This document shows positions 33,199 through 44,246 of a stretch of DNA of 64,000 nucleotides, one piece after another. The stretch covers positions 1-64,000 of the forward strand of contig NZ_JACJRJ010000014.1 in assembly GCF_014697195.1 (NCBI RefSeq), given 5' to 3'. Made by a program: the position numbers and the translations under genes. How positions within the stretch are numbered: position 1 is the stretch's first letter; the number at the start of each line of letters is the position of its first letter. Under the pieces are notes generated by a model. The model was not told the DNA's origin, searched no databases, and saw only the letters and a program-made list of their open reading frames with translations. This stretch comes from Cylindrospermum sp. FACHB-282. GTDB taxonomy: Bacteria > Cyanobacteriota > Cyanobacteriia > Cyanobacteriales > Nostocaceae.

Positions 33199-33399
33199 CT
33201 ATGTAAAGATGACATTTCCGTGGACAGGTCCGCTGATAATATTGTTGCCAATATTAGCAGCGCTAGCAATATTGTTGCCAACAGGTTTGACGTAGCGATA
33301 TTTAGGCTTACGGTAGCTGCCACATCCCCCAGCTAAAAGCTGCTGTTGTTCCGTGGTTAAGTCCACAAGCAAATTAGGGTTAATGTTTTGATTTGACAA
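33199..33399 (-). CDS. Double-glycine leader peptide precursor, Cys-first Tyr/Lys core
   Basis: 66 residues. The leader MSNQNINPNLLVDLTTEQQQ-LLAGG (25 residues) matches the leaders of the other small genes here and ends in the GG that C39 peptidases cut. The predicted core begins with Cys: CGSYRKPKYRYVKPVG, followed by NNIASAANIGNNIISG and PVHGNVIFT. It is basic and aromatic at the start and Asn/Ile/Gly-rich after. A single Cys means no internal disulfide. It is the gene farthest from the transporter on this side, on the same strand. Confidence 0.75.
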   Translation of the reverse strand: MSNQNINPNLLVDLTTEQQQLLAGGCGSYRKPKYRYVKPVGNNIASAANIGNNIISGPVHGNVIFT

Positions 33400-33681
33400 A
33401 ATTATTCACCTCTATTAATACATAAATTTCTCAGGACTGCACTTTTATTTATAAATCTATTTTCTCTAAATTAAATGTTGCTTTGGTTATATATCTTTGT
33501 GGTTTTTGGGATTTTAATTTTATCTTTGAACAGAATATATGAGAATCCTAAAACTAGTTCAAAACCAGATTAAGTTTGAGCTAGGGATACAGATTTTGTC
33601 TCACCATATCCCTATTAATTGCCCAATTTAAACTCTGTCGATTTAAGACAAAAGCCCGTTAAAACTGGCCTTGTCATCTTT

Positions 33682-33807
33682 TTACCACCAACCACCACCA
33701 TGACCACCGCCAGGCCAACCGTTACGTCCTCCAGTTAAAAGCTCCTGTTGCTCTGTGGAAAGCTCCACAAGCAAATCAGAGGTGATCGTTTGATTTGAAA
33801 TCATCAT
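33682..33807 (-). CDS. Double-glycine leader peptide precursor, short Gly/Trp core
   Basis: A 41-residue gene (ATG at 33807 or 33804). The leader MMISNQTITSDLLVELSTEQ-QELLTGG is nearly identical in plan to its neighbours. Cleavage after GG would release RNGWPGGGHGGGWW, only 14 residues and composed of Gly, Trp, His, Arg, Asn and Pro. An AGG-type ribosome site (AGTGAGGTAC) precedes the start. A Gly/His/Trp composition of this kind suggests metal binding or a modified mini-peptide, which is speculation. Confidence 0.75.
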   Translation of the reverse strand: MMISNQTITSDLLVELSTEQQELLTGGRNGWPGGGHGGGWW

Positions 33808-33985
33808 GTACCTCACTTGCTTATATAACCTGAAGAGAATCTAGCAAAATACACGCTTAAACTAGCTCAAGATTAATCAAGTTTTGAGCTAGTTATAGGA
33901 GTATTTTCTTGCTAATTGCAAAGTTGAAACCCTGACAATACTCACTTCCTAATCTTTGTCAACTTGCCCTTAATCATTAGGAGAA

Positions 33986-34153
33986 TTAGTGGCACATTTT
34001 GGAGCAGCATTTACTTTTCTTTTTTTTCATACAGCTATCGTAACAGTCATCACCACTTCCTCCACTTTGGCCACCAGATATAAATTGCTGTTGATCTGTG
34101 GATAGCTCCACGAACAAATCAGGCTGGAGAGTTTGAAAAGATTTAACAGACAT
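33986..34153 (-). CDS. Double-glycine leader peptide precursor, Cys-rich Lys core
   Basis: 55 residues from ATG 34153, with TTGAGGTAA upstream. The leader MSVKSFQTLQPDLFVELSTD-QQQFISGG fits the family. The 27-residue core QSGGSGDDCYDSCMKKKK-SKCCSKMCH has five cysteines in a CxxxC...CCxxxC pattern around a Lys cluster. This suggests disulfides or metal coordination and a cationic bacteriocin. It is the most bacteriocin-like core of the locus. It lies 505 bp downstream of the precursor gene at 34659. Confidence 0.75.
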   Translation of the reverse strand: MSVKSFQTLQPDLFVELSTDQQQFISGGQSGGSGDDCYDSCMKKKKSKCCSKMCH

Positions 34154-34658
34154 ATAGAATTACCTCAATTCGTGATAGATCGAGGTGATACAAATAAATG
34201 TTGGTTGAAATAACATGAATATGATGTACCACCTGTTATTTATTATTAATAACCAAATGTTCAATAAATGAACTATTCTAAGGTGATAAATAAATCGGCT
34301 AAATATCTAACTTTTGGTTCATGGCTAATACTATCCAAAGTTGAATGAAAATTTTAAAAGCAAGGTTTGATATTGCTTTTATTGTTTACGATGGGCAGAA
34401 GTAAGTAAGTAAGTAAGCGAAAAGAAATCAAACCATGTTAAGTAAAGTAAAAAATATTGAAATTACCTCGTAACAAGCGGCTCTGTGCCCTACTTTGTTC
34501 GCGTAGCATTTCGTATCGCCAACGCCTAGCTAGGGTCGACCACAGGAGATAGAGAGGGCTAAGAGCCGCTCACTACCAACCTTGAATTATTTACACCAAC
34601 CTACTTAGAATTAATTACGCTTTTATCATCATTTATACTTTTTTTTACAAGGTACAAA
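34154..34658. other. Spacer with a palindromic repeat and a GTAA microsatellite
   Basis: 505 bp without a gene. Inverted arms AGCGGCTCT (34476-34484) and AGAGCCGCT (34562-34570) enclose an interspersed-repeat-like interior (TTCGCGTAGCATTTCGTATC). A short GTAA tandem run (AAGTAAGTAAGTAAGTAAGC) lies near 34400. Confidence 0.7.
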
Positions 34659-34955
34659 CTATGAAAATAAACTTATGAGGAAATTGCCCAGAACATTCTT
34701 CCGTCTATTAGCGCTGGGACTGGAAGTAGGTAAATTCAACTTTATGGAATAACTGATGGTAGTTTGTGACAAATTATAGGTACTTTTTTGTGAAGAGACA
34801 TCACCACCTCCCAGATTTAATGTATTTTCTGCCGTAGTTTGAATATTAGTTTGCTGATAGAAAAGGCTAGCCTCACCTGCAACTAGGATTTCTTGTTCTT
34901 CCTCAGACAAATCCCTGAATAATTCAGGATTGTTGGATGTGGGATTTTCAGCCAT
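34659..34955 (-). CDS. Leader peptide precursor with altered cleavage site (AGE)
   Basis: 98 residues. The leader-like N-terminus MAENPTSNNPELFRDLSEEE-QEILVAGE aligns with the locus leaders, but the second glycine of the GG site is replaced: V-A-G-E. The remainder is Ser/Thr/Asn-rich (EASLFYQQTNIQTTAENTL, LNLGGGDVSSQKSTYNLS) and has a hydrophobic end, GNFLISLFS. It lies just 29 bp downstream of the C39 transporter gene on the same strand. It may be a substrate cleaved elsewhere, a non-cleaved partner, or an inactive copy. Confidence 0.65.
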   Translation of the reverse strand: MAENPTSNNPELFRDLSEEEQEILVAGEASLFYQQTNIQTTAENTLNLGGGDVSSQKSTYNLSQTTISYSIKLNLPTSSPSANRRKNVLGNFLISLFS

Positions 34956-34984: not shown

Positions 34985-37153
34985 TTACAATGCCAAAAAC
35001 TTTAAGTGTTCTCCTGGTTGAGAGAGAAAAGTCTCCATAGTGCCTTGTAGTTTAATCTGACCTTTATCTATGAGTACGATCCAATCAGCGCGATTGACTA
35101 CGCTGGGACGATGAGTGATCAAAATTGTAGTTTTGCCTTTTCGTTCTTCCAAGAGGCGATCTAGTACTTGAGCTTCACTGACTGGATCGAGTCCAGCGGT
35201 GGCTTCGTCTAAAATTAGTACAGGTGGGTCGGTGAGGATGCCTCTGGCGATCGCTAATCGTTGTCTTTGTCCCCCAGAGAGATTTGCCCCAAATTCCCCT
35301 AAAACAGTTTGATACTTACTAGGCAATTGACTGATAAATTCATCCGCATCAGCGATTTCGCAAGCTTTGACAACTTGCTCAAAAGAGATATAAGGCGTTC
35401 CTAAGCGGAAGTTTTCCAAAATCGAACGACTCCAGAAATGAGGTTCTTGGGGTACATAAACCACCTGTTGTCGGAGACAATCGAGAGAAAGGTCTTGGAT
35501 GTTATAAAAGCCAATGCGGATATTGCCAGAGTTTGGCGGATATAAGCCGGCTATTACTTTGGCCAAAGTACTTTTACCACAGCCTGATTTACCAATGAAA
35601 GCAATAACTTTCCCACCGGGGAGCTTGAGGGAAAAATCCTCTAATAAATCAACTCTACCAGGGTGGTGAAATTGGAGATGGGAACAACGAATATCTGCAT
35701 CTCCAGAGATTTGTGCCGCTGGCCTTTGACTTCCTCCCACCACTTCTGGTGTAGCATCAATAACTTCTAGTAGGCGAGAAATTGCCGTTTGCGAGCGAAA
35801 GTATTCATCGACGAAGCCAACTAACAAGTTAATTAAAGCCAGAACATTTACCTGTAGGGCATTAAAAGCCAGCATTTGACCGATGCTTAATTGCCCCCGA
35901 ATCACCAGCATACTCCCTAGCCCAAGTAAAATGACACTACCAACGGTAGAGAAGAGTCTAGAAACAGTACCATTAATAATGCCGATTTGGATGGTGCTAA
36001 AAGCTAGATTGGCAACGCGTCCAAAGCGACTTTGGAATTCTTCCCAGAATTGGGGAGCGGCATTTGTGGTTTTGATTACCTGTGCACCTTTAAAAGTTTC
36101 CACCAACACACCTTGATTTTCTGCTCCCAACACCAAAAGTTGGCGGGTTTTTTGTTGGAGAATGGGCAAGAAAGGCAAGGTGGATAAAGTCATTAAGGCA
36201 GCGACGAAGAGGACTGCTAGCGTTAGTTGCCAGCTGTAAAATAGCATCAGCCCGAAAGAAATCATCGCAATAAAAAACTGGCTGGGTAACAGAATTACAA
36301 TCTGTGATACCAATTGGTTGATTTCATTGATATCTCGCAGTCGGCTAGTAATTTCACCACTGCGACGAGCTTCGTAGTAAGCCAAGGGTAACTGGAGAAG
36401 TTTGCGTCCAAAGTCTAAGACTAACCCTAATTGCAGTCGCTGACCAAAGTGAGCAATCATCGTTGCTTGTACTGCTTGCAGGCTACTACTAAATAAGCTC
36501 ATCACCACAACCGCTGTCACCACAACGGTGAGTAGCTGGGTATCTCCCCGTACTAGGACATCATCTGTAAGCAGTTGAATGAGGATGGGGGTACCGAGAC
36601 CGAGTAGACCCAGGACAGTATTGATCATCAAAACCTGAGTGAGTAGCCCACGGTAAGGCAAGATGCGCTTCAAAAAGCGTCCTAAGCCACCTTTTGATTC
36701 TTCTTGGGGCTGTTCAAAAAAGCGGGTAGGATCTGGCTCTAGTAAGAGCATTACCCCATTCCAAGCTGCTGTTAATTCGTCTCGGCTAACATAGCGGATG
36801 CCTACAGCAGGGTCGGCAATGACGTACTTTTTGCCTCGTTGGTCGTAGAGTACGACCCAATGGTAGCCATGCCAATGAATAATTGCTGGTAACTGGATTT
36901 CTCTGATGCGGTCTGCGATCGCTGGTGAAGCTTTAACTGCCCTGGCATTAAACCCTAGAGTTTCAGAGCCACGTTTTAAACCCAGCAAAGTTGTTCCTAG
37001 CTGTCCAGTACCTACAGCATCGCGGCTTTTAGTCATGCTTAAGAAGCGTCCGTAATGCTTGCAAATGGAGACTAGACAAGCTGCTCCACAGTCTTCCTCA
37101 CTTAACTGTAAAACACACTGATAATTTTTATTGGGTTTGAGTAGATTAAACAT
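34985..37153 (-). CDS. Peptidase C39-containing ABC transporter (leader-cleaving exporter)
   Basis: About 722 residues. ATG 37153 is chosen because AAGGG lies five bases upstream; a GTG at 37159 is the alternative. The N-terminal C39 cysteine protease has catalytic Cys in LSEEDCGAACLVSICKHYG (about 22) and His in IIHWHGYHWVVLYD (about 98). Six membrane helices span about 165-440. The ATPase domain has Walker A GKSGCGKSTL near 517, signature LSGGQRQRLAIARG near 625 and Walker B PVLILDEATAG. Such proteins cut after the GG of leader peptides and export the core. It is central to the locus: the HlyD-type adaptor is upstream and precursor genes lie on both sides. Confidence 0.95.
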   Translation of the reverse strand: MFNLLKPNKNYQCVLQLSEEDCGAACLVSICKHYGRFLSMTKSRDAVGTGQLGTTLLGLKRGSETLGFNARAVKASPAIADRIREIQLPAIIHWHGYHWVVLYDQRGKKYVIADPAVGIRYVSRDELTAAWNGVMLLLEPDPTRFFEQPQEESKGGLGRFLKRILPYRGLLTQVLMINTVLGLLGLGTPILIQLLTDDVLVRGDTQLLTVVVTAVVVMSLFSSSLQAVQATMIAHFGQRLQLGLVLDFGRKLLQLPLAYYEARRSGEITSRLRDINEINQLVSQIVILLPSQFFIAMISFGLMLFYSWQLTLAVLFVAALMTLSTLPFLPILQQKTRQLLVLGAENQGVLVETFKGAQVIKTTNAAPQFWEEFQSRFGRVANLAFSTIQIGIINGTVSRLFSTVGSVILLGLGSMLVIRGQLSIGQMLAFNALQVNVLALINLLVGFVDEYFRSQTAISRLLEVIDATPEVVGGSQRPAAQISGDADIRCSHLQFHHPGRVDLLEDFSLKLPGGKVIAFIGKSGCGKSTLAKVIAGLYPPNSGNIRIGFYNIQDLSLDCLRQQVVYVPQEPHFWSRSILENFRLGTPYISFEQVVKACEIADADEFISQLPSKYQTVLGEFGANLSGGQRQRLAIARGILTDPPVLILDEATAGLDPVSEAQVLDRLLEERKGKTTILITHRPSVVNRADWIVLIDKGQIKLQGTMETFLSQPGEHLKFLAL

Positions 37154-37278
37154 AGTCACCCTTCTGGATCAAAACTTGGTAAACAAGATCAGGGAATTTA
37201 GAATTTTAGATTTAGTGATTCTGCTTAACCCAAAATCCTCAAAGAGCAATTGATGATTGTTAAAACCCAATTGTGGGA

Positions 37279-38769
37279 TTACACATCTGTGATGAGTCTT
37301 CCTTTTCTGAGAATGAACTGAAGCACGGTTTCCCGACGGGAAATAATATCAGCGCGACCTTCCATTCCCGATTTGAGATCACACAAGTGCTCCCCTCTAC
37401 CCACATATAGAGTTTCTGGCTCAATTATTACTTCATAGGCAGTAGTTGGACTGTTTTTGTTCACTACTAGGGCATCTGGTGCCACAGTTTTCACAATTGC
37501 TTTGAGAGTTCCGTAGTCTGGGTAAGGACAGGCAGAAACCTGCATCTGGACTTTTTGACCCGGTTTCACCTTGTCAATATCTTTAGCCTGGACATAAGCC
37601 TTAATCTGTAAAGGAGCATCGAGGGGGGCAATTTGGGCGATCGCTTCACTTGGTTGCACCACCTGTCCTGGGTTGCGGAGATTGAGTTGCAGTAGTACAC
37701 CTGTAATCGGCGCTCGAATCACACTTTTACTTAAGTCAGTTCCTACTTGTTGTAGTTCTTGACGAGTGCGAACGAGTTGTTTTTGTAGTTCTAAACGCTG
37801 CTGGAGTAGAGACTCTCGTTCTCTTTTTAAACTGGCTAAAGTACCTTCACCCCTTGCTTGTTCTTGCCTAATCCGTTCAGATGCCATAGTGACGGCAGCA
37901 TTATTAGGATTGATCGCCGTTTTAGCCTTTTCTAGATTCATTTGGGCTATTTGAAGGGCTTGTTCTTTATCCTCCAAGAGGTTTTTAGCCGTAGCTTTGG
38001 CTTGTTCTAGCCTAGCTTGAGCAGACTTAAAGGCTTGGTCTTTTTCCTCAAATAGATTGAGAGGAACTGCTCCCGATTCGACTATCGGCTGCAATCGCTC
38101 TCGTTGCACTTGGGCTAACTTCAAGGCGGCTTCTGCTTCTTCTACAGTTGCTGTTAATACTTTTTCCCGCCGCAATCGCTCCAGTTGCACTTTGGCTAAT
38201 GCCAAGGCAGCTTCTGCTTGTGTCATTTCCGCAGTAGCTTTAATTTGCTGATCGCCATAGTTGCGTTCAGTACCACCTAGCTCCGCTTGTGCCGCCGAGA
38301 TTGTGCGGTTAATTAACTCAGTCTGGGACACAATCTGAGTATTGATTTGAACCAGTTGAGTACCGATTTGACCCAGTTGTAATTGACCCTGCTGAATAGT
38401 GTTTTGTAGTTGGCTCTTTTGAGTTTGCAGGCGGGAATCATCAACATAAGCGATCGCATCCCCCTGATTCACCACCTGATTTTCTCGGACATCAATCCTT
38501 TCAACAGTTCCAGCCGTGGCGGACTGAATAACCCGCAGTTCTCCCACAGGTCGGATAGTGGCAGGGACTTTGACTGTGACATTGTAATGGAGAACAGATG
38601 TGAGACTCATCCCTGCCACAAAGATAGTCAGCAACACTCCCCCTCCGATGCTAGTCCATTTATTGATATGAGGGAGAAACTCGTTAACTTCAATTAAATG
38701 GAGTTGCTCAGGAATCGGTTCATTCAATTGATCCCTAACATAGTTTTCCTCATGGCGTAAGGAGTTCAC
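37279..38769 (-). CDS. HlyD-family membrane fusion/adaptor protein
   Basis: 496 residues. One N-terminal membrane anchor (ISIGGGVLL-type segment near residue 40: GGGVLLTIFVAGMSLTSVLH). A lipoyl-like beta half follows (SATAGTVERIDVRENQVVNQ, GDAIAYVDDSRL). The coiled-coil hairpin of about 200 residues has heptad-like repeats (AEAALALAKVQLERLRREK, AEAALKLAQVQRERLQPI), then VIRAPITGVLLQLNLRNPGQ completes the split lipoyl domain. It bridges an inner-membrane exporter to an outer-membrane channel. It is immediately upstream of the C39 ABC transporter (125-bp gap), forming a type I-like secretion pair. No TolC-like gene is in the window. Confidence 0.93.
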   Translation of the reverse strand: MNSLRHEENYVRDQLNEPIPEQLHLIEVNEFLPHINKWTSIGGGVLLTIFVAGMSLTSVLHYNVTVKVPATIRPVGELRVIQSATAGTVERIDVRENQVVNQGDAIAYVDDSRLQTQKSQLQNTIQQGQLQLGQIGTQLVQINTQIVSQTELINRTISAAQAELGGTERNYGDQQIKATAEMTQAEAALALAKVQLERLRREKVLTATVEEAEAALKLAQVQRERLQPIVESGAVPLNLFEEKDQAFKSAQARLEQAKATAKNLLEDKEQALQIAQMNLEKAKTAINPNNAAVTMASERIRQEQARGEGTLASLKRERESLLQQRLELQKQLVRTRQELQQVGTDLSKSVIRAPITGVLLQLNLRNPGQVVQPSEAIAQIAPLDAPLQIKAYVQAKDIDKVKPGQKVQMQVSACPYPDYGTLKAIVKTVAPDALVVNKNSPTTAYEVIIEPETLYVGRGEHLCDLKSGMEGRADIISRRETVLQFILRKGRLITDV

Positions 38770-39453: not shown

Positions 39454-39732
39454 TTAAAGAATAGGTGGGGGAGGTAAGGCTGTAATGTTCCCAGGAATAG
39501 TTCCACCCAGTCCCAAAAGATATTGTGCCGCAGTATTCCTGGACCTATCCCAGCCAACAGAGAAGGTAGTGCTGCCTAAGGGAGTGGAGGCGGTTGACTC
39601 CAGGGAAAATACAACTCTTTCAGCAAAATTAGTGTTACTCAGACCAAAGTCAGCACCACCAGAAACAAGCTCCTGTTCCTGAACAGATAACTTGACGAGC
39701 AACTCGGATGCAATGATTTGATCTGACATCAT
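39454..39732 (-). CDS. Secreted-peptide precursor, Ala/Gly/Pro family (member 1)
   Basis: 92 residues (start 39732 or 39729). The leader MMSDQIIASELLVKLSVQEQ-ELVSGG is followed by a diverged family core: ADFGLSNTNFAERVVF, a unique middle (LESTASTPLGSTTFSVGWD), then NTAAQYLLGLGGTIPGNI and the end ALPPPPIL. It belongs to the seven-member family filling 39.4-44.1 kb. The core lacks Cys. The family resembles proteins annotated elsewhere as cyanobacterial 'CTB family bacteriocin', from memory. Confidence 0.75.
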   Translation of the reverse strand: MMSDQIIASELLVKLSVQEQELVSGGADFGLSNTNFAERVVFSLESTASTPLGSTTFSVGWDRSRNTAAQYLLGLGGTIPGNITALPPPPIL

Positions 39733-39840
39733 GATAAGCCTCTCTAAACCTACATCTTTTATGTAGGGGAAGGATCTAGAAAAAAAGAATAAGTCTGATG
39801 AAAAAATTTATTCATTCTGGACTTTTTGATCACACCACTC

Positions 39841-39935
39841 ACAAGTTGCTGCTTAGATAGGCAAGGCACTTTGGTTTGAAATCTGAATAACCTGACAAAC
39901 AACTTGAATGCAATGATTTGATTTGAGATGATGAG
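39841..39935 (-). pseudogene. Relic of a precursor gene (leader fragment without start codon)
   Basis: The minus strand reads SNQIIAFKLFVRLF, matching the family leader SNQIIxSxLFVxLS. Preceding bases are ATCATC where the working copies have ATG or ATGATG. The match stops after the leader. Immediately downstream is sequence like the 3' flank of intact members (TTTTTGATCACACCACTCAC, GCAAGGCACTTTGG), so the body of the gene was lost by an internal deletion. Confidence 0.65.
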
Positions 39936-39984
39936 TAACCTTACTTAACCTAACCTATAGGTTTTAGCTGGGGAAAAAGAAAAT

Positions 39985-40278
39985 TTATTTTAGTGTTCCA
40001 ATACTTAAGAAAGCTGGTGGAGTGATCACGGAAGTGTTTGCAGCGGTCTTAGTGCCTTTTCGTCCGCCTAGAGCATCGCTGATACTACCAGCAGGTCCAG
40101 AAAAGATTTGTCCCTGTGTATTCGTAGCCTTCCCCATATCAGTTGTTCCCGTGAGGGTACCGCCCTGTATAGGTAATGGGCCACTACCAAGTACAAGATC
40201 CTGACCGCCATTGATAAACTGTTGTTGCTCATCAGATAACGTGATAAACAACTGGGATGCAATGATTTGATTTGACAT
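39985..40278 (-). CDS. Secreted-peptide precursor (member 2, divergent core)
   Basis: 97 residues from ATG 40278. The leader MSNQIIASQLFITLSDEQQQ-FINGG has a perfect GG site. The core QDLVLGSGPLPIQGGTLTGT continues TTDMGKATNTQGQIFSGPAG and ends VITPPAFLSIGTLK. It keeps the SGPAGS-like stretch of its paralogues but lacks the TAAQDFLGLGG block, so it is the most divergent member. An upstream in-frame ATG at 40287 would add MLN. It contains no Cys and is on the same strand as the transporter. Confidence 0.7.
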   Translation of the reverse strand: MSNQIIASQLFITLSDEQQQFINGGQDLVLGSGPLPIQGGTLTGTTDMGKATNTQGQIFSGPAGSISDALGGRKGTKTAANTSVITPPAFLSIGTLK

Positions 40279-40503
40279 ATTCAACAAAAGTGTTCTGAAA
40301 TTGGAGAAGACAACTACCGCCTAATCGGCAGAAACCTTTAGTACCCACATTGCTCATTTCACTCTTGACCTTTTTTTGAATTGAATTGACGCTCTCAGAA
40401 CCACCACTTTCCTATCTTTGCTTGCAGATGGGAAGCGTTCTCATATAACAGCTGATTTTTGTCTGATCACCTGAAGTAATGTTTAAGAAACAGTGGTGGT
40501 TAT

Positions 40504-40815
40504 TTACCCTGGGTTTGCGGCCACTGGGGCCACATCTGCGCCAAGCATGGGTGCAGGAGCCAAAGCTCCAATGTCTGTAGGAATAGCTGCACCCGATCCT
40601 AACAAAGCTTGTGCAGAGTTACTGATGTAATTCTTCTGGAGTCTGGTGTTGGAAGTATTACCCAAAGGGCCAGAAGTCGTTGTCCCCTGTTGATTGACAA
40701 CGTCTTGAGTAAAGTTACTGTTACTCTGCTCAGAGCTGGCGCTACCAACTAGAAGCTCCTGTTGTTCCTCACATAAGTCTACAAACAACTCAACAGCCAT
40801 GATTAGATGTGACAT
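40504..40815 (-). CDS. Secreted-peptide precursor-like gene with lost GG site (member 3)
   Basis: 103 residues from ATG 40815. The leader-like start MSHLIMAVELFVDLCEEQQE-LLVGS aligns with the family but the cleavage site reads G-S instead of G-G, and a Cys replaces the usual Ser/Asp (LCEEQQ). The rest keeps family blocks: ASSEQSNSNFTQDV, QQGTTTSGPLGN, SAQALLGSGAAIPTDIGAL and an Ala/Pro end. It may be poorly processed or decaying. Confidence 0.65.
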   Translation of the reverse strand: MSHLIMAVELFVDLCEEQQELLVGSASSEQSNSNFTQDVVNQQGTTTSGPLGNTSNTRLQKNYISNSAQALLGSGAAIPTDIGALAPAPMLGADVAPVAANPG

Positions 40816-40907
40816 AGTTCTTAGCCCTACTAATGCAATCTTGAACAATAAGGATTCCAGACACTAAGAAAGCAGATGAACTTTTCCCTAACCCATTCAC
40901 CCTTGGG

Positions 40908-41046
40908 AAAACCTGTCCAAAATTGGTGGTTCCAACGCTAGTTGGAGGCTTGGAGAATCTCGTTTTCACGCAAAATATTGGGTGATGCCGCCCTGCGCAC
41001 CGAGTTTACCCATCTAACGAATAGATTTTGGCTCAGGAACCGCAGG
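40908..41046. repeat. Interspersed repeat family A (copy 3)
   Basis: CTTGGGAAAACCTGTCCAAA, ATTGGTGGTTCCAACG, AATCTCGTTTTCACGCAAAA and TTGGGTGATGCCGCC match the copies at 8.2-8.6 kb (reverse) and 24.1-24.3 kb. The inverted ends have decayed here. The copy lies between two precursor genes. Confidence 0.85.
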
Positions 41047-41159
41047 AGAAGAAACCTTGAGCGCCCATTGTGTCATGGGCGACAACGACAACAAAGTTAA
41101 CCTGGCAATTCCTGAACTAAACCTGTCCAGCAGTTGGGTGTGATATCTGATTTTTTTAG

Positions 41160-41438
41160 TTACCCAAGGACGGGTGTGGGGGGTAAAGCTCCTATGCCTT
41201 CAGGAATTTCTCCACCCAAGCCTAAGAAATCTTGGGCTGCGGTATTGGTAAGATTACTAGTTCCTGCGGAGTTAGCGAAGCTGCCACCAGGGCCGGAAGA
41301 AGTTGTCCCCCGTAAGGCACTAATTCTGTTGGCGAAATTGCTGTTACTCAGTTCAAAGTCAGCGCCACCAGCTAGAAACTGCTGTTGTTCATCAGATAAA
41401 GGGACAAACAACTTAGATGTAATGATTTGATTTGACAT
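41160..41438 (-). CDS. Secreted-peptide precursor, Ala/Gly/Pro family (member 4)
   Basis: 92 residues from ATG 41438. The leader MSNQIITSKLFVPLSDEQQQ-FLAGG has a canonical GG. The core ADFELSNSNFANRISALRGT continues through TSSGPGGSFANSAG, NLTNTAAQDFLGLGGEIPEG and the end IGALPPTPVLG. This is close to a family consensus and lacks the long Ala/Pro tail of members 5-7. A GTGAGCCTC-type flank precedes it. The core is hydrophobic, Gly/Ala/Asn-rich, without Cys, consistent with a class II-like secreted peptide. Confidence 0.78.
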   Translation of the reverse strand: MSNQIITSKLFVPLSDEQQQFLAGGADFELSNSNFANRISALRGTTSSGPGGSFANSAGTSNLTNTAAQDFLGLGGEIPEGIGALPPTPVLG

Positions 41439-42091
41439 GATTGTGAGCCTCACTTAGATATTTCTCAAACAAAGGATTTAGGACTTCACAGATAGAAAAC
41501 AGCAAAGATGGGGTATGTTTTGTGTGATTAAAAGTGCGAAGAAAGTGCGTTAGGGAATGCACACTACGGGTAGGATGGCAGACTCATCAAACAACCATCT
41601 CTTCTCTTCGAGACGCTAGACCTTGGGGCAGCATAGCCTCTGGCGATAGGAGACAGCCTCAAGCTAGGAACGAGGGTAAATTTGTACCGTATGTAAGTCC
41701 TAGGATTCCAGAAACTGGCTTGCGGATAATTTTCTCTGAGGCATTTACCCAGATGATTGGGTTGTGCCAAAGGGTAGATAACAAGAAGCCTCTGGAATCC
41801 ACAGCTATTACTACCATCTCAAGAGAATAAATTTTGATCATCCTTCTTGTTTAGTGCCATAACAACAAGGGAGTAAACCCTGTGCTGTCTTGATAAAATC
41901 AGCAGGATGACTTCTGCAATGGTTGATTCTTCAGGATAGAAATGGCAGATTTTGCCTAAGGGCAGAAGGAAGAAAGTATTGATTCATTCTTCATTCTTGA
42001 TTGTTTGATCACCCCAGTCACTATTGCTTACCGTCAGGTACAAAGCACTCTGGAGTGACATCTGCCGAATTTTTGTTACTGATGGGAATGC
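41439..42091. other. Spacer; right part is the first copy of the repeated precursor flank
   Basis: 653 bp without a supportable gene. The part from about 41850 onward (TAGTGCCATAACAACAAGGG through GTCAGGTACAAAGCACTCTG) is repeated with a 788-bp period at 42.64 kb and again near 43.43 kb. Confidence 0.65.
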
Positions 42092-42451
42092 TTAGACTGT
42101 GGGGACGGCGGCGATCGCACCGGGGACTACGGCGATCGCACCAGGGATGGGGGCTGGAGCTGGGGCGACATTTCCATTCAGAACAGGTGCAGCACCCAAG
42201 GCGCCGACGTCCGCAGGAATGGTTCCACCCAAGCCCAAGAAATCTTGCGCTGCGGTATTGGTCGCATTATTAATTGCGCTAGAGTTGCCTGTGCTGCCAC
42301 CGGGGCCGGAAGCAGTTGTTCCCTGTAATGTTGCCAGTCTGTTGGCGAAATTGCTGTTACTTAATTCAAAGTCGGCGCCACCAGCTAAAACCTGTTGTTG
42401 TTCATCAGATAAGGTGACAAACAACTCAGATTGGATAATTTGATTTGACAT
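42092..42451 (-). CDS. Secreted-peptide precursor, Ala/Gly/Pro family (member 5)
   Basis: 119 residues. Leader MSNQIIQSELFVTLSDEQQQ-VLAGG, then the core ADFELSNSNFANRLATLQGT, TASGPGGSTGNSSAINNATN and TAAQDFLGLGGTIPADVGAL. The extended Ala/Pro/Val tail includes NVAPAPAPIPGAIAVVPG. It is almost identical to member 6 except for a few substitutions in the leader, core and tail. Ribosome site GAAGC lies upstream. There is no Cys. It lies in the tandem array and each member probably has its own promoter because the 5' flank is conserved. Confidence 0.8.
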   Translation of the reverse strand: MSNQIIQSELFVTLSDEQQQVLAGGADFELSNSNFANRLATLQGTTASGPGGSTGNSSAINNATNTAAQDFLGLGGTIPADVGALGAAPVLNGNVAPAPAPIPGAIAVVPGAIAAVPTV

Positions 42452-42879
42452 GATTCTTTGCTTCAGTTAGGTATTTGTAAAAAAATGGATTCTAGAGACT
42501 GACTTGCTGCCTCCAGTTTGCCCTAACCCCTAAAGCTAGAGGATGGGGTGGTGAGAAAAAGTCCAAGACAGGTCATCTCTAGAATCCATAGATGCCGCTA
42601 TCTCAGGAGAAGAAACTTTGAGTGCCCTTCTTATTTGGTGCCACAACAATAAGGGAGTAAACCCCCTGCTGTCTTGGAAAACTAAACAGGGTGACCTCTG
42701 CAATGGTTAGCTATTCGGGATAAAAATTGCAGATTTGGTTTGGGGGAAGAAAGAAGGAATAACGTATTGATTCATTCTTCATGCTTAATTGTTTGATCCC
42801 CCCACTCACTATTGCTTACCGTCAGGTGCAAAGCACTCTGGAGTGACATCTGCCAAATTTTTGTTACTGATGGGAATGG

Positions 42880-43239
42880 TTAGACTGTGGGGATGGCGGC
42901 GAGGGCACCGGGGACGGCGGCGATCGCACCAGGGATGGGGGCTGGAGCTGGGGCGACATTTCCATTCAGAACAGGTGCAGCACCCAAGGCGCCGACGTCC
43001 GCAGGAATGGTTCCACCCAAGCCCAAGAAATCTTGCGCTGCGGTATTGGTCGCATTATTAATTGCGCTAGAGTTGCCTGTGCTGCCACCGGGGCCGGAAG
43101 CAGTTGATCCCTGCAATGTTACCTGTCTGTTGGCGAAATTACTGTTACTTAGTTCAAAGTCGGCGCCACCAGCTAAAACCTGTTGTTGTTCATTAGATAA
43201 GGTGACAAACAACTCAGATTGGATAATTTGATTTGACAT
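42880..43239 (-). CDS. Secreted-peptide precursor, Ala/Gly/Pro family (member 6)
   Basis: 119 residues, a recent duplicate of member 5. The leader is MSNQIIQSELFVTLSNEQQQ-VLAGG. The core differs at RQVTLQGSTASGPGG (versus RLATLQGTTASGPGG), and the tail ends PGALAAIPTV. A TGAGGCAAAG ribosome site lies five to ten bases upstream of ATG 43239. Differences are concentrated at a few codons, suggesting early divergence after duplication. Confidence 0.8.
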   Translation of the reverse strand: MSNQIIQSELFVTLSNEQQQVLAGGADFELSNSNFANRQVTLQGSTASGPGGSTGNSSAINNATNTAAQDFLGLGGTIPADVGALGAAPVLNGNVAPAPAPIPGAIAAVPGALAAIPTV

Positions 43240-43697
43240 GATTCTTTGCCTCAGTTAGGTATTTCTAAAAGAATGCATTCTAGAGACTGACTTGCTGCCT
43301 CCAGTTTGCCCTAACCCCTAAAGCTAGAGGATGGGGTGGTGAGAAAAAGTCCAAGACAGGTCATCTCTAGAATCCATAGATGCCGCTACCTCAGGAGCAG
43401 AAACTTTGAGTGTCCTTCTTGTTTAGTGCCACAACAACAAGGGAGTAAACCCCCTGCTGTCTTGGAAAACTAAGCAGGGTGACCTCTGCAATGGTTAGCT
43501 ATTCGGGATAAAAATTGCAGATTTGGTTTGGGGGAAGAAAGAAAGAAGAACTTACCAGTACAATGCCATATTGATTTATTCTTCATTCTTGAATGTTTAA
43601 TAACCCCCACTCACTATTCCCTACCGTCAGGTGCGAAGCTCTCTGATGTGACTGCTGATTTTTGGACTTACCGATGGGAATGCTGAGAGAATAGCGA

Positions 43698-44066
43698 CTA
43701 CGGCGCCACGCCAGGGGTGACAACAATGCCTGCATCGGGGCCAGCGGCACCAGCAGCTTCTGGGGCTGGTGCGACTTCTGGGGCTGCTCCATTCAGGACA
43801 GGTGCAGCACCCAGTCCACCAATGCCTAGAGGAATGGTTCCACCTAAGCCTAAGAAATCTTGCGCTGCGGTATTGGTCGCATTATTAATTGCGCTAGAGT
43901 TGCCTGTGCTGCCACCGGGGCCGGAAGCAGTTGTTCCCTGTAATGTTGCCAGTCTGTTGGCGAAATTGCTGTTACTTAATTCAAAGTCGGCGCCACCAGT
44001 TAGAAGCTCTTGTTGTTCATCAGATAATACAACAAACAACTTGGATACAATCATTTGATTTGACAT
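43698..44066 (-). CDS. Secreted-peptide precursor, Ala/Gly/Pro family (member 7)
   Basis: 122 residues from ATG 44066 (an in-frame start at 44081 is less likely because the family begins MSNQ). Leader MSNQMIVSKLFVVLSDEQQE-LLTGG. The middle of the core is identical to member 5 (LATLQGTTASGPGGSTGN). The end differs: GTIPLGIGGLGAAPVLNG, then APEVAPAPEAAGAAG and DAGIVVTPGVAP. It is the last (5'-most) gene of the array. The mosaic pattern suggests exchange between copies. Confidence 0.8.
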   Translation of the reverse strand: MSNQMIVSKLFVVLSDEQQELLTGGADFELSNSNFANRLATLQGTTASGPGGSTGNSSAINNATNTAAQDFLGLGGTIPLGIGGLGAAPVLNGAAPEVAPAPEAAGAAGPDAGIVVTPGVAP

Positions 44067-44246
44067 GATTCTTTGCCTCACTTACTTTCATTAGGTGTGT
44101 GACCACCTAAGAACTTAACTATATGCACTGCTTCCCAGAAATTCATAAATCTAGGGGTAGAAATCAAACTTATAAGTTTACTTCTAAAAGTAGATATAAG
44201 AAAAACTTTTATGTGTTTTAGCTATAGTAATCTCTATGAGATGTAA

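Follow-up and report, generated by a model that had tools for sequence, protein, structure and literature searches.

Two very small double-glycine precursors of Cylindrospermum belong to a Nostocaceae mini-peptide set with a common upstream module and one transporter lineage

Two short neighbouring genes, B1 and B2, in the 64,000-nt stretch of the Cylindrospermum sp. FACHB-282 genome analysed here (the window) encode double-glycine precursors, and computation places them in a conserved Nostocaceae locus within a set of mini-precursors, many of which are preceded by an upstream module of ~100 nt that is linked to a single lineage of the transporter PCAT. B1 and B2 are very probably the precursors of secreted, co-regulated peptides.

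33682..33807, minus strand: B1 precursor, 41 aa, ATG at 33807 and stop ending at 33682, with a core of the Gly/aromatic class
33986..34153, minus strand: B2 precursor, 55 aa, with a core carrying a twin CX3C around KKKK and five Cys

B1 is made up of the leader MMISNQTITSDLLVELSTEQQELLTGG and the 14-residue core RNGWPGGGHGGGWW, and B2 of the leader MSVKSFQTLQPDLFVELSTDQQQFISGG and the 27-residue core QSGGSGDDCYDSCMKKKKSKCCSKMCH. The ribosome sites claimed in the initial annotation were recovered, a Shine-Dalgarno-like GAGG being found upstream of both B1 (GTGAGGTAC-ATG) and B2 (TTGAGGTAATTCTAT-ATG). Using a leader profile trained on precursors from other genomes, after removal of all leaders of the window, the B1 leader scored 54.6 bits, the top ORF of the window, and the B2 leader 40.1 bits, compared with a maximum of 9.0 bits for shuffled ORFs (19,761 scored) and of 5.9 bits for those window ORFs that are neither intact nor decayed precursors. 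Scores this far above background exclude a chance origin of the two leaders; both of the translatable GG-leader ORFs proposed earlier are present on the minus strand, and their status as precursors is close to certain. The two were said to share the same leader, and the leaders are indeed related but not identical, while the cores behind them are as different as had been described, Gly/aromatic in B1 and twin-CX3C in B2. Against the CTB family model NF038167 B1 scored 24.3 bits and B2 22.8 bits, both missing the curated cut-off of 32 and matching with the leader part only, and a Pfam and PHROGs search of the mini-precursors matched no family. Homologues of both precursors were found in other Nostocales.

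The initial annotation treated B1 and B2 as a pair of genes. The pair is real, but it belongs to a larger set comprising a third small precursor, D98 and seven CTB-type precursors, arranged around a transporter as follows.

33199..33399, minus strand: third small precursor, TTG start, core CGSYRKPKYRYVKPVGNNIASAANIGNNIISGPVHGNVIFT, leader 40.8 bits; its orthologue in G040, the nearest relative found, has its own module
34659..34955, minus strand: D98, a divergent leader-bearing gene directly after PCAT, leader 26.3 bits, with counterparts in most PCAT loci
34985..37159, minus strand: PCAT, 724 aa, C39 peptidase, ABC transmembrane and ATPase domains (PF03412, PF00664, PF00005)
37279..38769, minus strand: HlyD-family membrane fusion protein (PF13437 and TIGR01843 match)
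39454..44081, minus strand: seven CTB-type precursors 5' of HlyD, without module, recognised by ORF and leader scores; three representatives were scored against NF038167 and exceed its cut-off
39759..39944, minus strand: decayed CTB-type precursor, leader start SNQIIAFKLFVRLF recognisable (12.4 bits), frame and GG lost

Residues C24, H100, D116 and Q18 of PCAT are invariant among 12 orthologues, and by comparison with ComA we take them to be the catalytic residues. Residues 10-717 match the full-length PCAT structure 4ry2, and the C39 domain begins at residue 13 with no other N-terminal domain, which makes this PCAT a short type without CAP_ED. It has the C39 catalytic residues, the domain order and the double-glycine substrate in common with PCAT1, ComA and LahT. 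In comparison with the ComA consensus (PMC6363468), the mini leader keeps L-12, S-11 and L/I at -4, whereas Gln at -8 and -7 replaces Glu-Leu. The D98 core is conserved across genera, unlike the other cores, and the module precedes D98 in 0 of 36 cases; D98 could be an accessory or immunity factor. Two of the CTB precursors (window 42092-43239, minus strand) are recent duplicates, with one stretch of 297 nt 97% and another of 300 nt 95% identical, and a third copy at 43698-44081 is 90% identical to them.

The nine genes flanking the cluster on both sides were assigned by Pfam to an oxidoreductase, RRF, a kinase, a redoxin, a hydrolase, a peptidase M15 and TspO, with two lacking a match; no RiPP-modifying enzyme, LanM, SurA or second ABC transporter was recognised among the nine. 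Since none of the nine was recognised as a peptide-modifying enzyme, the only modification to be expected in the cores is probably the formation of disulfides. An Rfam scan of 32-45.5 kb returned no family.

Judged by gene content (short-type PCAT, adjoining HlyD, no LanM, SurA or second ABC transporter among the nine flanking genes), the locus is of group III in the scheme of Wang, Fewer and Sivonen (2011, PMC3140520). As far as the parts of that article used here go, group III clusters likewise combine a short-type PCAT and HlyD with several small GG precursors nearby, whose cores are diverse and Gly- and Cys-rich and many of which were missed by annotation; the same parts sort clusters by their enzymes and describe no ordered core classes, upstream module or link to a PCAT lineage. 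With the CTB family (NF038167) the minis share leaders that match the N-terminal part of the model, and true CTB members lie upstream in the same locus, but the mini cores are unrelated, their scores fall below the cut-off, and the CTB-side precursors carry no module. A literature search for the locus tags alr5147 to asr5150 found only a LexA survey and the 2011 article. Cyanobacterial double-glycine "bacteriocin" clusters were already known, and the ~100-nt upstream module appears to be new; fixed-order core classes and an upstream module were both absent from the literature searched, which is weak evidence of novelty.

A search of 217 family genomes was run with each mini-precursor, yielding 80 regions and, with the window locus, 81 for analysis. 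A recognisable gene order was present in 63 of the 81, running from CTB precursors through HlyD, PCAT and often D98 to small precursors of several classes, with acid-rich, Cys-rich and Gly/aromatic cores found side by side. A Gly/aromatic/Arg-His core is the last precursor in 41 of 45 loci, where 13.9 would be expected by chance, a figure that is descriptive because the class was defined with the sequences already in view and leader hits decided which regions were included. Choosing regions by leader should favour no particular position, and loci picked by PCAT similarity instead gave the same pattern in several genomes. In the window locus the Gly/aromatic core, that of B1, is the last but one.

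Upstream of the small precursors an iterated nhmmer search seeded with window 34204-34388 recovered an element of ~100 nt in 160 copies across the loci, and the following parts were located in the window.

34227..34332, minus strand: ~100-nt module, 5' of B2 and, beyond B2, of B1, with an inverted repeat and a promoter-like core; E 1.6e-13 in its own genome, a value that is partly circular because the sequence-only model contains this copy
33441..33495, minus strand: partial module copy 5' of the third precursor, E 5.1e-4 in its own genome
34183..34234, minus strand: predicted 5'UTR hairpin from a computed fold, arms 34225-34234 (AGGTGGTACA) and 34183-34192 (TGTATCACCT)

The module consensus contains an inverted repeat, CNAAAG-TATAAAT and ATTTMTAACTTTAG, which was the best-scoring register of about 2000 arm pairs, followed on its 3' side by GGATAATTTAAT, TTTATAAATAAAA, AGGT and then a hairpin just 5' of the ribosome site. 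The arms of this hairpin are variable, as is its loop length, and across 66 sequences the native arms pair better than swapped ones (z 5.8, with 0 of 2000 permutations reaching the observed value), indicating covariation. Two ranges of distance between module and start codon stand out, 30-49 and 60-79 nt. The module is probably an operator and promoter joined to a 5'UTR hairpin, the first two parts being read from sequence features.

Over all loci the module was found before 135 of 242 mini-precursors, with none detectable at the other 107; none of the 180 CTB-side precursors has it. Of the 119 strong matches (E<=1e-5), 116 are followed within 160 nt by a GG-leader precursor. Scanning the 6.1-Mb genome of the organism itself with the sequence-only model gave three significant matches, each 5' of a precursor. 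The third of these (contig 25, E 3.2e-10) precedes an orphan precursor with leader MSVQLLQSELLEDLAIEQQELIAGG and a core beginning KCYKGDDEDDDK; this copy and the partial copy upstream of 33199-33399 were outside the training set of the model. The orphan (L289:5790-5975) has the module and no PCAT within the surrounding 12 kb, and its counterpart exists in G040 (L103, YCSKRDDDD...). A weak match (E 0.09) on contig 23 (L278) lies next to an ORF of Gly-Cys-Arg repeats, GGCRGGGGCRGG..., that lacks a convincing leader.

Among 60 sampled genomes the module occurs in 17, all within the family. A PCAT orthologue of 80% identity or more is present in 18, namely the 17 module carriers and G177, while the remaining 42 have neither, many of them possessing PCAT paralogues at 61-73%. 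Because the PCAT locus holds the majority of module copies, linkage accounts for part of this association, though not for the orphan copies. The mini-precursor set in Nostocaceae would be served by one orthologous PCAT.

In the mechanism that we propose, the neighbouring PCAT would recognise the leader common to B1 and B2 and its C39 domain would cut after Gly-Gly, upon which the cores of 14 or 27 residues would leave via PCAT, HlyD and an outer-membrane channel encoded elsewhere, most likely unmodified. Both the cut after GG and the subsequent export are strongly implied. The mini-peptide set, distinct from the CTB precursors, would stand under the common ~100-nt module. A wider reading, which we regard as plausible yet not quite probable, is a dedicated regulon present in a large part of Nostocaceae, in which a regulator would bind the inverted repeat of the module and switch on mini-peptides of fixed chemical classes (Cys hairpin, acidic-basic, beta type and Gly/aromatic) that leave via one PCAT; the covarying 5' hairpin would add post-transcriptional control, and cores would be swapped as gene units behind the module. 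The expression data found were confined to Nodularia, whose CTB genes are up under phosphate starvation (PMC9846622).

The likeliest role of the exported peptides would be that of a small cocktail of bacteriocin-like peptides, one Gly/aromatic and membrane- or surface-active, the other disulfide-linked. Antibacterial action is the conventional reading and rests on family names; we consider it speculative and hold it only tentatively, as it is weakened by the fact that no immunity gene was identified in the cluster. This same finding would suit peptides that are not antibacterial at all but parts of the cell surface or extracellular matrix, with low-complexity Gly/aromatic/Arg cores adhering to one another or to polysaccharide, and cross-links formed by Cys cores. 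Such a role, which we judge rather unlikely, agrees with a class composition that is kept while the sequence drifts (61 cores, 53 of them without acidic residues), with the single Gly/aromatic gene that ends most loci and with the different core classes lying side by side, but the 14 residues of the B1 core are short for a structural part, cores diverge fast between species, and the literature searched gave no experimental hint.

An improbable alternative is that the peptides are signals between cells of a filament or colony, as has been proposed for the cargo of the HetC exporter. HetC of Nostoc PCC 7120 is likewise a PCAT from a heterocyst former; it is required for heterocysts to form, and its presumed cargo is a regulatory peptide (PMC10986499). 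The conserved module speaks for dedicated regulation. HetC, however, is a long-type PCAT that carries a nucleotide-binding domain and has no known GG precursor nearby, whereas the PCAT here is of the short type with precursors alongside; moreover, the cores are highly diverse across species and come in sets, unlike most signals.

The core of B2 shows the Cys pattern that had been claimed, CxxxC...CCxxxC around KKKK, with five Cys arranged as C-YDS-C ... C-C-SKM-C, and is on this pattern a member of a twin-CX3C class. Its best homologue is in Dolichospermum sp. ST_sed8 (G056; KKGKEDDDDCCYDKCMKKKKSKTCKSLCDDE, E 6e-13, 63% identity); CX3C pairs also occur in L104, L116, L150 and L119, and looser versions in L161, L123, L124, L134 and L163. 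The recurrence of the twin CX3C among homologues fits disulfides in B2. In a twin-CX3C disulfide hairpin peptide the two motifs would be expected to sit in a helical hairpin, and for B2 AlphaFold2 with 14 sequences returned a low-confidence model (mean pLDDT 62.6). The proposal of a disulfide-rich cationic bacteriocin therefore stands as plausible but unproven, its disulfide part fitting the recurring motif, whereas the net charge is not kept (from -3 to +4 across ten class members), the fifth Cys shifts position and no immunity gene was identified.

The B1 core looks like a contracted member of the Gly/aromatic/Arg class that has kept its WW end. The counterparts of its leader in Desmonostoc geniculatum (L149) and Nostoc calcicola (L154) are followed by GW repeat-rich cores of 30 and 39 residues with WW at the end, and the C-terminal WW that B1 has in common with such longer Nostoc-type cores suggests that internal repeats were lost from B1; truncation of the gene was rejected for the same shared end. 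From these counterparts the B1 leader differs by 5 synonymous and 3 nonsynonymous codons, with codon position 2 unchanged throughout, a count that represents one comparison since the L149 and L154 leaders are identical to each other. The class (61 cores) preserves composition and not sequence: median Gly is 0.42 and median aromatic 0.25, 58 cores are net positive, 53 are free of acidic residues and 51 have an aromatic end. Metal binding appears very improbable, both for the His/Gly/Trp core of B1 and, through thiols, for B2: B1 has one His and B2 five Cys, but His occurs in only 29 of the 61 class members, position 3 of the B1 core is not His, which leaves no N-terminal ATCUN site, and Cys number and spacing vary among B2 homologues. 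The metal-binding role suggested earlier for the Gly/His/Trp core is therefore unsupported as a conserved trait, and a His-based role was rejected for the class.

The arrangement of the two genes was traced through their flanks. The 208-nt region 5' of B2 (window 34388-34179) is 79-82% identical to the region 5' of the B1 counterparts in three Nostoc-type genomes, and in L129 it leads straight into the B1 counterpart, so that B2 looks inserted in the window as a unit of ~338 bp. The sequence 3' of the B2 stop matches that of G056 and G007, indicating that the gene and its 3' flank travel together. Similar inverted repeats follow both genes.

33860..33894, minus strand: inverted repeat ~90 nt 3' of the B2 stop, AACTAGCTCAA / TTGAGCTAGTT, possible 3' end
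33554..33584, minus strand: similar inverted repeat ~100 nt 3' of the B1 stop, possible 3' end, the only exact match of the pattern in the genome

The two repeats (31-39 nt) lie at matching distances and are 85% identical over 39 nt. Related sequences come after precursors in other genomes. The CTAGYTCAAA inverted repeat was rejected as a genome-wide mobile element, having one exact match in the genome. Sitting between the module and B1, B2 is probably co-transcribed with B1, and the hairpin between B2 and B1 could stop transcription short of B1.

The nearest relatives of the genome, G039 (Cylindrospermum sp. NIES-4074, AP018269) and G040, are of the same genus. Both genes are absent, not disrupted, in the locus of G040, whose PCAT is 96% identical, and leader homologues elsewhere are intact, so that the disrupted frames in close relatives that would have counted against the initial annotation were not seen. 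We give least credence to B1 and B2 being decaying, functionless precursor remnants: the B1 core is the shortest of its class (14 residues against a median of 40), G040 lacks both genes and a decayed CTB precursor lies nearby, but the frames are intact with ribosome sites present, the B1 leader changes fall mostly at third codon positions, the WW end is conserved and the module copy is strong.

Predicted double-glycine precursors number in the hundreds in cyanobacterial genomes. The module provides a search key that is independent of protein similarity and reaches orphans far from any transporter, and by linking a single precursor set with a single lineage of PCAT it opens cargo assignment, expression conditions and the regulator to testing. 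Precursors as small as B1, at 41 codons, are thereby shown to be genuine parts of a conserved system.
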